From a virus: DNA of 23,728 nucleotides. Location of the stretch: positions 1-23,728 of the IMG/VR virus record IMGVR_UViG_3300043823_000274; one strand, 5' to 3'. This document shows positions 5,485 to 12,069 of the stretch, in pieces. Position 1 is the stretch's first letter. The number at the start of each line of letters is the position of its first letter. A model generated the notes under the pieces. The model was not told the DNA's origin. It was given only the letters and a program-made list of their open reading frames with translations, and ran no database searches. Made by a program: the position numbers and the translations under genes.

Positions 5485-5790
5485 TTAATTTCCCTCAAAT
5501 AATTTCCAGTCGTCAGACAACATATCGGTCTGAGAGGCTAACCAACCAGACAAGTACGCTTGACGACCTTCTGAATTAACTGTCCACATATCAATATGCG
5601 GAAGGATTTCCATACCATCCAAGCCACGGCTTTCAAGAAACTCTTTGGTAATCGGGCCATTTGGTCGCAAATTTTCCTTCATTACCTTGTATCCTCCTGC
5701 CATAAGCAAAAACATACCTTTCCCGTTCCATCCCTCGCGGGTTACTTGTTTGCCGTTTTTAAGGGCTTGTATCGCTTCTCCAAAATTCAT
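5485..5790 (-). CDS. tad2: DUF2829/Tad2-like protein, probable Thoeris anti-defence sponge
   Basis: The protein has 101 residues and carries the hallmarks of the DUF2829 family: an N-terminal MNFGEAIQALKNGK, then REGWNGKGMF (18-27) and a C-terminal WLASQTDMLSDDW (83-95). The best-studied member, phage SPO1 Tad2, binds and sequesters the cyclic ADP-ribose signal of Thoeris, and some homologues also bind cyclic oligonucleotides of other defences. ATG 5790 has GGAG seven bases upstream and overlaps the nuclease stop codon (ATGA), so translation is probably coupled. The region between the two motifs, about residues 30-80, contains a charged insert that could alter ligand choice. The family call is fairly secure; activity against a particular defence is inferred. 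Confidence 0.8.
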   Translation of the reverse strand: MNFGEAIQALKNGKQVTREGWNGKGMFLLMAGGYKVMKENLRPNGPITKEFLESRGLDGMEILPHIDMWTVNSEGRQAYLSGWLASQTDMLSDDWKLFEGN

Positions 5791-6584
5791 TTTGATACTC
5801 CAAAGTTGTTTTTAAGTTTCCAGTAAGATAATAAGCAATTAAACATCTCCCAACCCTTCTCAAGGTCTTCCTGAGTCCACTCAACGATCTTGACAAGGTT
5901 AGGAATTCGTCGGCTGATAAAGACGTTAGCGCATCGAGCTGCGGGTAGCCCTAAGCCCCACCGATAAGCCGCCAGTTGCATCAAGTGTTCGTCGTAACCC
6001 TTGACCTCATCGTCTTCCGAGAAGTCCTTGGTCTTAACGTCCAACACAATGCCCGTGGGGGCGGTTTGGGATGGCTCACAGTACATATCAACCTTACCCC
6101 CAAAGCGAAGCACAAATGAAGCGAATGAACGCTCCAATAGCCACTTCTCATTGGGATGGGAGTTGAAGAACTTATGAATAGCCTCGTCCGTGGCTAATGC
6201 CTGTTCCTTGTGAACAACGTCACGCTCACCCTTGAACCATTTCTCAATGGACTCATGGATGCGCGTACCGTCCTCAGCCGCCTGTTTAGCGGTTTCCTTG
6301 GAGTCGGCGTTTATACGGGCTATAAAATCCTTCTCAGGCTCGTCAGGGAGCCTTGGCAGGGTAAGGGCTGCCAAGAGCATCTGTTCGAGCTTCCAAGCCT
6401 CTAGAGCGGGCTTGGCGGCGATTTTAAGGATAGTGGTGACCGATGGAACCAAGTTCATCTTACGGGCGTCACGCAGCGTTGTAGGGCGCTGTGAGCCGTC
6501 CTTGGCCTTTACCGTGTACTGGGGTGAGCCGTCCTGACCGTACCAGTGAACGGACTCTGCTGCCCTAGCAATAATTGTTGTCAT
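5787..6584 (-). CDS. RecB/Cas4-like PD-(D/E)XK exonuclease
   Basis: The protein has 265 residues. It shows the ordered motifs of this nuclease fold: DGTRIH (105-110, His 110), a conserved Glu-Arg at 151-152, GGKVDMY (162-168, metal-binding Asp 166), LDVKTKD (181-187, Asp 182 and Lys 184) and QLAAYRWGL (203-211, Gln 203 and Tyr 207). I see no four-cysteine iron-sulphur cluster, so it is closer to stand-alone phage exonucleases than to classical Cas4. It lies two genes downstream of the SSB-like gene, which points to end-resection or recombination-dependent replication. Both of its ends overlap neighbours by four bases (ATGA). The gene is clearly more GC-rich than the gene upstream. Confidence 0.85.
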   Translation of the reverse strand: MTTIIARAAESVHWYGQDGSPQYTVKAKDGSQRPTTLRDARKMNLVPSVTTILKIAAKPALEAWKLEQMLLAALTLPRLPDEPEKDFIARINADSKETAKQAAEDGTRIHESIEKWFKGERDVVHKEQALATDEAIHKFFNSHPNEKWLLERSFASFVLRFGGKVDMYCEPSQTAPTGIVLDVKTKDFSEDDEVKGYDEHLMQLAAYRWGLGLPAARCANVFISRRIPNLVKIVEWTQEDLEKGWEMFNCLLSYWKLKNNFGVSK

Positions 6585-6943
6585 GTGAGTCTCCTTCGGG
6601 TTCTTTTGGGTTTGATTTTTAGCGATTTAATTTTTGACAAAATCCAATCACAATCTGAACGCAAGGTTTCAAAAATAAAAGAGTTTTCAGCATTAACAAT
6701 TTTTTTGTCAACGTATTTCTTTTCCATTTGCTCGTAAATTTCTCTGAGCCGAAAATGAACTTCAATTTCAAATTGACTTGCTATGCGATCTTTTTCCGCA
6801 TATTCAAGGATTTGATTCAAAACTTCAGATAATTCATCTTTATCATTTTCTTTTGCAATTACTGAAAATACAAATTGATTTTTATAATCAACTTGTTCAT
6901 TCGTTGTTTGTGGATAAGCATGAAACTTTATTGTTTTCCACAT
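6581..6943 (-). CDS. AT-rich hypothetical protein (120 aa)
   Basis: ATG 6943 has AGGAGG about five bases upstream, an excellent ribosome site, and its stop overlaps the nuclease start. The product is charged and mostly helical, with a Glu/Lys-rich centre and a very basic C-terminus (KIKPKRTRRRLT) that could bind nucleic acid. No family is recognised. Its codons are much richer in A and T than the SSB-like and nuclease genes on either side, which suggests later acquisition into the operon. Its position between an SSB-like protein and a nuclease leaves room for a recombination-accessory role, but nothing proves it. Confidence 0.65.
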   Translation of the reverse strand: MWKTIKFHAYPQTTNEQVDYKNQFVFSVIAKENDKDELSEVLNQILEYAEKDRIASQFEIEVHFRLREIYEQMEKKYVDKKIVNAENSFIFETLRSDCDWILSKIKSLKIKPKRTRRRLT

Positions 6944-10705: not shown

Positions 10706-11580
10706 GCTTTTTAGATTTTGCCGCCCAGAATGGGCTAGATATCCCCCTTGGTAAGTTCTACCCGTCCGACAAGATTAAGCGTTGTGGGACGACCGATAAG
10801 CCCAAGTCCGATAACGGGGCGTTCTTCTGGGACGGTCAGCGTGGGTGGGTGATGAATTGGAGCCTTGATCAGAAGGTTCATTGGTATCACGACAAAACCG
10901 CGAAACCTTGGACGGAGGATGAAAAGCAGTATTGGCGAGATCGGCGCAGGGTTGAGGCGATGAAAAAGTCGGAAGCGCAAGTTAAAGCAGCTCAGAAGGC
11001 TATGCGCGACCTGCGGTTTGCCATCTTGCGTGATCACATTTACCTTGACGTCAAAGGGTTTCGGGAAACCGAAGGGCTTGTGCTTGACGAGAAGCTGCTT
11101 GTCCCTATGCGCAATATGCGGACGAACCTTATTCAAGGCTATCAGGCTATTTGGTGGGACAAAACGAAAAAGGATTACGTCAAGAAGATGCTGTATGGCA
11201 TGAAGGCCGCCGAAGCTGTTTTTTATATTGGAAAAACTAAAAATACTGAATACTGGCTAGTCGAGGGATACGCCACAGGATTAAGCCTAGCGGAAGGGCT
11301 TAAGCGGGCTTGTATTCCCGCCACGGTAGTGGTTTGCTTCTCAGCCAACAATCTCGGCACTGTCGCCCGTTATTTGGCTTCTATGGGCAATGTTTATATT
11401 TTTGCCGATAACGATGCCTCCAAGACTGGGCAAAAGGTGGCTGAAGCGTCGGGGTGTCGGTGGGGAATGGCTGAAACTGAGGGGTGGGATGCCAACGATT
11501 TACATCAGCGCAAGGGAATATTGGCGCTTGTTAGAAAAATAATGGAAATAAGGCTTGACCCGCTATTAAAGGCGGTATAG
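10702..11580 (+). CDS. Toprim-domain DNA primase-like protein
   Basis: The protein has 292 residues. The C-terminal half is a Toprim domain: VEGYATGLSLAEGL with catalytic Glu 188, then IFADNDAS with Asp 236 and Asp 238, then GWDANDL (Asp 263, Asp 266). This is the order seen in phage and plasmid primases. The N-terminal part (1-110) is basic with only one cysteine (Cys 28), so it has no classical zinc ribbon. Primases make RNA primers for lagging-strand synthesis; here the helicase is a separate gene rather than a fused domain. It is the last gene of this run and its last codons hold a promoter-like sequence directed at the structured RNA region. Confidence 0.85.
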   Translation: MSFLDFAAQNGLDIPLGKFYPSDKIKRCGTTDKPKSDNGAFFWDGQRGWVMNWSLDQKVHWYHDKTAKPWTEDEKQYWRDRRRVEAMKKSEAQVKAAQKAMRDLRFAILRDHIYLDVKGFRETEGLVLDEKLLVPMRNMRTNLIQGYQAIWWDKTKKDYVKKMLYGMKAAEAVFYIGKTKNTEYWLVEGYATGLSLAEGLKRACIPATVVVCFSANNLGTVARYLASMGNVYIFADNDASKTGQKVAEASGCRWGMAETEGWDANDLHQRKGILALVRKIMEIRLDPLLKAV

Positions 11581-11583
11581 GAT
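11555..11583 (+). promoter_or_regulatory. Predicted promoter for the structured RNA region
   Basis: TTGACC (11555-11560), a 17-base spacer and TAGGAT (11578-11583) lie across the end of the primase gene. Transcription would start near 11590, just before the first hairpins of the structured region. Confidence 0.4.
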
Positions 11584-11589
11584 TACATC

Positions 11590-11760
11590 GTCTGATGTGG
11601 CAGTCAGGCGTAGAGGAAAAAGTATGACCCCAGACCGTTTAAGTGTGGGGCGTGTAGATGAAGCGTTTACCCCTCGAAGGTAAAAATCTTTTTTCTCGAC
11701 GCCCAGTCTGCCCTCGCCAAGGGCCGCTCCACACTTAAATGTTCTGGGGTTTTTCTTTTG
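11590..11760 (+). ncRNA. Structured RNA 1: 22-bp closing stem with a branched interior
   Basis: Bases 11627-11648 pair with 11729-11750 over 22 positions with one mismatch and one G-U pair. Inside are GGGCGT (11648-11653) with ACGCCC (11699-11704), enclosing the hairpin TTTACC (11666-11671) / GGTAAA (11679-11684), then a hairpin GCCCT (11710-11714) / AGGGC (11720-11724). This folds as a branched junction. T5CT4 follows at once, so the whole could end by intrinsic termination. The stem is far longer than an ordinary terminator. The exact 5' end is inferred from a promoter-like sequence. No known RNA family is recognised. A 19-codon frame with a ribosome site overlaps the left arm. Confidence 0.55.
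11624..11683 (+). CDS. Possible 19-residue leader peptide in structured RNA 1
   Basis: The frame from ATG 11624 reads MTPDRLSVGRVDEAFTPRR, preceded by GAGG (11613-11616) seven bases upstream. It runs through the left arm of the long stem and stops in an inner hairpin. If translated, ribosomes would open the stem, as in attenuation leaders. It is too short to judge from codon use and may be chance. Confidence 0.25.
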   Translation: MTPDRLSVGRVDEAFTPRR

Positions 11761-12014
11761 GCACTCAGACCGCCAAACTGGTCGCTCACTCGCGGCTGCG
11801 GTTTGGGGAAAGCTCTACAGTGGGAAAGACGTTGAGATAGAGCTAGGGGTGGCGAAGGCAGCGCCCCAACGTCGAACGGCTACCGAGGTGTCAGGCTCCG
11901 ACTCGACATAAAGGCTCCCCAGAGGCTACGGTCTCTGGGAAGGCTGAGGAATCCCACCAACCCAACAGACTAACTAGGATTAACCGTTAAGTACTCTTAC
12001 TGATATATTTTTTT
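11761..12014 (+). ncRNA. Structured RNA 2: hairpins and a pseudoknot, unknown family
   Basis: No reading frame of note is present but many helices are. A hairpin spans 11773-11806 (CCAAACTG / CGGTTTGG plus an inner stem). AGCTCTA (11811-11817) pairs with TAGAGCT (11838-11844), while GACGTTG (11828-11834) in its loop pairs with CAACGTC (11867-11873), a pseudoknot. A small hairpin GGCG (11851-11854) / CGCC (11862-11865) sits between. CCCAGAGGC (11918-11926) pairs with GTCTCTGGG (11931-11939) around a TACG loop. GTGGGA (11820-11825) may pair with TCCCAC (11952-11957). A T8 run lies at 12007-12014. The function is unknown. Confidence 0.55.
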
Positions 12015-12037
12015 TAAATTTTAACTTGTTATTAGAG

Positions 12038-12043
12038 TATACT
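12038..12043 (+). promoter_or_regulatory. -10-like TATACT upstream of the oxygenase gene
   Basis: TATACT lies 26 bases before the oxygenase ATG, in a very AT-rich stretch after the T8 run that may end the structured RNA. I see no good -35 at 16-18 bases, so this promoter is tentative. Confidence 0.35.
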
Positions 12044-12069
12044 GTGAACAGTTTATTTTGGAGAAAGTT

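Follow-up and report, generated by a model that had tools for sequence, protein, structure and literature searches.

The interval at positions 11590-12050 of the window (the whole 23,728-nt stretch of viral DNA that was analyzed) almost certainly encodes the Betaproteobacteria-1 RNA (RF02932), and the RNA found there is ~200 nt long, is multiply pseudoknotted, and spans about 11770-11968. A cmscan search of the whole 23.7-kb window against Rfam 15 returned a single match, RF02932 at 11771-11888 on the plus strand, with a score of 96.1 bits against a gathering cut-off of 49.4 and an alignment covering the full length of the model (positions 1-120 of 120). A preliminary description of this DNA had called the RNA undescribed and had stated that no known pattern fits; the match shows that both statements were wrong. 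None of 14 control genomes contained RF02932, and no tmRNA or tRNA was found in the window either by ARAGORN (0 genes) or among the Rfam matches. RF02932 is a catalogued family whose function is unexplained, and a search of one literature library by family name or accession retrieved nothing relevant. As printed by cmscan, the Rfam model comprises 120 positions and three nested helices. All three helices form in the window, the third with one non-standard (C-A) pair, and the conserved blocks GUGGGAAAG, GGGUGGCGAAG, AG-GCCC, and GAACGGCU are present as well, as seen in the alignment and in columns invariant among relatives. The window RNA thus shares the helices and conserved loops of the model and matches it end to end, while exceeding it in length and in having additional long-range interactions and a 3' domain. 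The model as printed lacks the pseudoknots, the 3' domain, a repeated word, and an upstream hairpin. Since the family label is uninformative on function and these features lie beyond the printed model, part of the claimed novelty survives; as far as we checked, the repeated word, the upstream U-run hairpin, and the co-direction of the downstream gene are apparently new for RF02932. The elements are as follows:

11555..11583, plus strand: promoter-like site TTGACC-17-TAGGAT, upstream of the hairpin; a weak match (9/12), by consensus only
11626..11760, plus strand: long hairpin, with a ~25-bp stem of 11626-11650 with about 11727-11750, then TTTTTCTTTT; fold z -6.07
11773..11806, plus strand: P1 hairpin, 11773-80 with 11799-806; 85% paired, both-side changes in 8/8 pairs
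11795..11821, plus strand: PK0, P1 loop 11795-98 with 11818-21 in the P2 loop; 95.6% paired, both-side changes in 3/4 pairs, mutual information
11811-17 with 11838-44, plus strand: P2, AGCUCUA with UAGAGCU; Rfam consensus structure, mutual information
11828-34 with 11867-73, plus strand: PK1, GACGUUG with CAACGUC; 92.9% paired over the five outer pairs, among the top mutual-information pairs
11846..11867, plus strand: P3, 11846-50 with 11863-67; 91.5% paired, three pairs with both-side changes and three invariant
11857..11884, plus strand: P4, 11857-62 with 11879-84; 98.1% paired, interlocked with P3 and PK1
11885..11967, plus strand: 3' domain (P5, P7, repeated word) beyond the Rfam model; match to covariance model R2, 24.4 bits, E 2e-6
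11889..11908, plus strand: P5, 11889-92 with 11905-08; mutual information, 80% paired with both-side changes across A2, a count leaning towards the hand-set helix
11900..11908, plus strand: repeated word, copy X1, GACUCGACA; read directly in the window, with statistics from the family
11913..11953, plus strand: P7, 11913-22 with 11944-53; 81% paired across A2 (likewise hand-set), read by hand in the window
11918..11939, plus strand: hairpin CCCAGAGGC-UACG-GUCUCUGGG; read directly, present in the minimum free energy (MFE) fold, alternative to upper P7
11959..11967, plus strand: repeated word, copy X2, AACCCAACA; read directly in the window, with statistics from the family

Direct reading of the window places all four stems and hairpins of the preliminary description (P1, P2, PK1, and the UACG hairpin) where it had put them, and its central claim of a structured, pseudoknotted RNA is strongly supported by covariation among relatives. 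It had proposed a search for covarying pairs in homologues; in an alignment of 45 diverse RF02932 copies (A1), the pairings are kept, with 398 compensated cells compared with 144 after shuffling, and 81.5% of cells are paired compared with 61.9% in shuffled and 33-49% in slid versions. Mutual information computed over 134 copies (effective number 94) points to the same structure: the top pairs fall in the proposed helices, and the highest value of all belongs to the P4 pair 11858-11883. The window and its closest relative found, the isolate ctpbd312 (L223, MW202545.1), by themselves show compensated changes in each of P1, PK0, P2, PK1, P3, and P4; PK0 in the window is the swapped form GCUG/CAGU. 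The PK1 pseudoknot, described initially as 7 bp, is real, being 93% paired in the 45 relatives with both-side changes in all five counted pairs; its length is better given as 5-7 bp, because the last one or two pairs compete with the conserved helix P3. P2 is paired in only 28-64% of the A1 copies and is partly out of register in that alignment. The conserved block GGUGGCGAAGGC (window 11846-11867) resembles a conserved stretch of 16S rRNA. The nested fold has an MFE of -79.8 kcal/mol and a z-score of -1.76, with 11 of 200 shuffles equally good; folding energy alone would not prove a structure here, and it is the relatives that prove it.

These data also bear on whether the interval is instead a hidden small gene or its helices are random. 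Two hypothetical proteins are annotated across the RNA in ctpbd312, UOF78433 and UOF78434 (5652-6109, minus strand); the RF02932 RNA with its 3' domain occupies 5757-5946 there. The window has no comparable frame, the longest one contained in 11590-12050 being 40 aa, in agreement with the initial view that the gap holds no credible gene; furthermore, the compensated changes and invariant G-U pairs lie on the plus strand, where the Rfam match is also found. We therefore consider a coding or chance origin to be refuted by the covariation, with a negligible probability left to it, and the two ctpbd312 proteins are probably spurious gene calls.

Conservation continues 3' of the Rfam model through helix P5, a GAAGGC block, helix P7, and then UCCACC. 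We built a covariance model (R2) for it from 44 loci, with the window excluded and the structure set by hand after inspection of the sequences; R2 finds exactly one match in the window, at 11885-11967. R2 also matches ctpbd312 (1.7e-11), the cultured Acidovorax phage AP1 (4e-6), bacterial copies, and several copies outside the training set. P7 contains two mismatches in the window. The UACG hairpin is indeed present, as had been noticed at the outset, but its bases 11918-22 belong to the conserved P7 helix as well, so that two pairings compete for the 5' strand of P7, one with its distal partner and one within the local hairpin; similar alternatives occur in two relatives (L002 and L028), and this alternative pairing is a possible switch. 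RNAalifold applied to a MAFFT alignment of the 3' domain recovered only three pairs, because MAFFT loses the register of the variable helices.

The 3' domain carries a word of ~9 nt that recurs after CUCC in P5 (X1) and after CACC behind P7 (X2), alike within a phage and different between phages. The two copies in the window are identical at six positions and differ by transitions at the other three, and transitions are frequent among the X1/X2 mismatches of other loci as well. Across 71 distinct loci, agreement between X1 and X2 at positions 2-9 is 0.58-0.92 within a locus, compared with 0.30-0.70 between loci, and each position covaries with its counterpart by identity. The summed identity is 431, whereas 249 +/- 12 is expected and the maximum in 20000 permutations is 296 (z about 16), in a test that preserves composition and not relatedness. 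Relatedness does not explain the joint change of both copies in the near relatives L027 and L029, where TCCGGCA has become TCCGTGT at both places. The spacing between X1 and X2 varies from about 47 to 84 nt. A search for a Watson-Crick partner column elsewhere in the RNA yielded none, and the complement of the word is enriched neither in 22 phage sequences, nor in a phage's own genome, nor in the flanks of the RNA.

To place the window RNA among its relatives, we ran pattern scans of IMG/VR, which yielded 17 and 21 contigs and, later, at least 120, with Rfam confirming RF02932 in nearly all those tested. More than 130 distinct copies were collected, most of them on viral contigs; two loci at 33 bits, below the cut-off (L048 and L049), were set aside as probable chance matches. 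RF02932 is found above the cut-off in 5 of 399 Burkholderiales genomes, and a search of 369 genomes of the Betaproteobacteria class found it in the query genome itself and in none other. It is thus mainly a phage RNA, living in the early or replication gene region of tailed phages. In AP1, the cultured carrier identified here, it lies between the primase gene and the one that follows, and AP1 was found only when other family members served as blastn queries; blastn with the 480-nt interval or with one RNA against INPHARED phages and plasmids gave no match, and a search of viral contigs by the primase protein gave nothing. The terminases of ctpbd312 and the window share 79% identity, and RF02932 occupies the same primase-oxygenase interval in this isolate. 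That isolate has five tRNA genes (6215-6696, minus strand) between the primase gene and the RNA, where the window has no tRNA. The bacterial copies lie near a TniQ gene, a TnsB-like gene, a type I methyltransferase, Hma genes, and PADLOC candidate defence genes.

Genes near the RNA, named by reading their sequences (and for the window's own genes by PHROGs matches), include Cro-like regulators and Erf-like, exonuclease-like, ParB-like, helicase, primase, RusA-like, and methyltransferase genes. No protein family among these neighbors accompanies all copies, which makes host machinery or a general target likely. The long hairpin upstream of the RNA in the window was matched in stability by 0 of 200 shuffles. 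Counting hairpins of 60-140 nt with a U-run ending no more than 30 nt from the RNA, we found one just upstream in 62 of 130 loci, compared with 17 of 734 control windows (2%). The upstream gene's stop codon lies within 45 nt of the RNA in 40 loci, and the hairpin occurs in 62 of the 90 others, never together with such a stop codon. Because loci with an opposite-strand upstream gene have the hairpin too, it is not merely the terminator of that gene. In counts confined to ORFs with homologues, the RNA and the nearest downstream gene are co-directional in 90 of 90 loci, while the nearest upstream gene shares the strand of the RNA in 83 of 107 and lies opposite to it in 24 of 107. Naive ORF calling had produced 17 opposite-strand downstream genes, none of which was left after this restriction. 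For two bacterial copies, L215 and L218, the downstream genes run opposite to the RNA. The distance and identity of the downstream gene vary between loci, few copies have an intrinsic terminator just after X2, and the next 400 nt show no enrichment of terminators (29 loci vs. 37 on the opposite strand). The 50 nt following the RNA have an AT content of 0.67, compared with 0.53 overall.

The co-direction, the variable downstream genes, and the lack of an own terminator are in keeping with an element of the early transcript, either cis-acting or processed to a free RNA. Our leading explanation, which we hold tentatively and on the basis of sequence comparison, is that the RNA acts in trans from an early phage transcript and that one common partner recognizes both copies of the word. 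The RNA would be made as part of an early transcript, which in some phages reads through the U-tailed hairpin and in others enters the RNA directly from the preceding gene. It would then work as a separate domain, most likely after processing and via host machinery; the core pseudoknots would form a rigid scaffold, with the two 9-nt copies displayed by the 3' domain for recognition of one and the same partner, RNA or protein, in trans. We favor action in trans because of the opposite-strand bacterial copies, the tRNA neighbors in ctpbd312, and, above all, the repeated word; the failure to find the word's complement in the 22 phage sequences and flanks counts against it. It is conceivable, though we regard it as rather unlikely, that RF02932 RNAs are programmable two-headed recognition RNAs, in which a pseudoknotted scaffold shows a freely evolving word twice to a partner in trans; if so, phages would use such RNAs, as would, in rare cases, Tn7-like or defence-associated elements. 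The present analysis gives a family without a found function a habitat, a full length, pseudoknots, and a two-copy word constraint.

The orientation of the neighboring genes suits a cis-acting element equally well or better, and the scarcity of own terminators fits one too. In such a scheme, the nascent RNA would modify RNA polymerase so that it reads through early-operon terminators (processive antitermination, the activity of the put RNA of phage HK022), a possibility that we judge to be on the unlikely side. It would account for the contrast between strictly co-directional downstream genes and upstream genes in either orientation, for the variability of the downstream gene, for the early-operon location without a dedicated protein, and for the absence of a terminator directly after most copies. 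On the other hand, the RNA sits after, not before, the U-tailed hairpin, there is no excess of downstream terminators to be read through, the opposite-strand downstream genes of L215 and L218 argue against a purely cis-acting leader, and the phage-specific word would be left unexplained. Alternatively, the two copies of the word could be recognized not by base pairing but by a phage-specific protein that binds RNA (or DNA). Phage-specific sites have a known precedent in the boxB elements of lambdoid phages, the identity coupling requires just one common binder, and the missing complement in RNA, flanks, and phage genomes would be expected; we nonetheless consider this unlikely, given that nearly every position of the word varies, that there is no universal accompanying protein family, and that the variable X1-X2 spacing speaks against a fixed DNA geometry. 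Still less probable, in our view, is a replication element, with the RNA priming or licensing the replication of phage DNA where it is encoded: helicase and primase genes lie directly upstream in many loci, including the window, AP1, and ctpbd312, and the AT-rich stretch after the RNA would suit an origin of this kind, but many loci lack helicase or primase genes adjoining the RNA, such a stretch is equally expected of a promoter or leader region, and the bacterial copies stand in defence or Tn7-like surroundings.

The put RNA of phage HK022, which lies downstream of early promoters, is ~70 nt long with two stem-loops, acts in early phage transcripts, and needs no phage protein (PMC9378689). 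The RF02932 RNA resembles it as a structured RNA of early phage transcripts without a dedicated protein, but at ~200 nt with interlocked helices it has neither the size nor the shape of put, which weighs further against antitermination, and we found no sequence or structural relationship between the two. With the c4 antisense RNA (RF01695) it shares a phage location and possibly variable recognition sequences; it differs in giving no Rfam match to that family and in showing no enrichment of a complementary nearby target, either in the flanks or in the phage's own genome. GOLLD and ROOL are associated with phages and, like RF02932, are structured RNAs of bacteria and phages, but they are much larger, and the window contains no Rfam match for them. 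Structures of GOLLD and ROOL have been reported (PMC12286853).

Individual loci show further details of their surroundings. A TniQ gene adjoins the RNA in a Burkholderiaceae MAG (L218) and a TnsB-like gene adjoins it in an Alcaligenaceae genome (L219), and the neighbors at these Tn7-like sites include HipA/HipB-like or type I restriction-modification genes. In L215 and L217, the RNA lies beside HmaB/HmaC genes and the PADLOC candidates PDC-S06 and PDC-S37. One genome (G258) carries three RF02932 copies (L212, L213, and L214), one of them below the cut-off, and two of the three lie close to paired genes that look like imuB and dnaE2.
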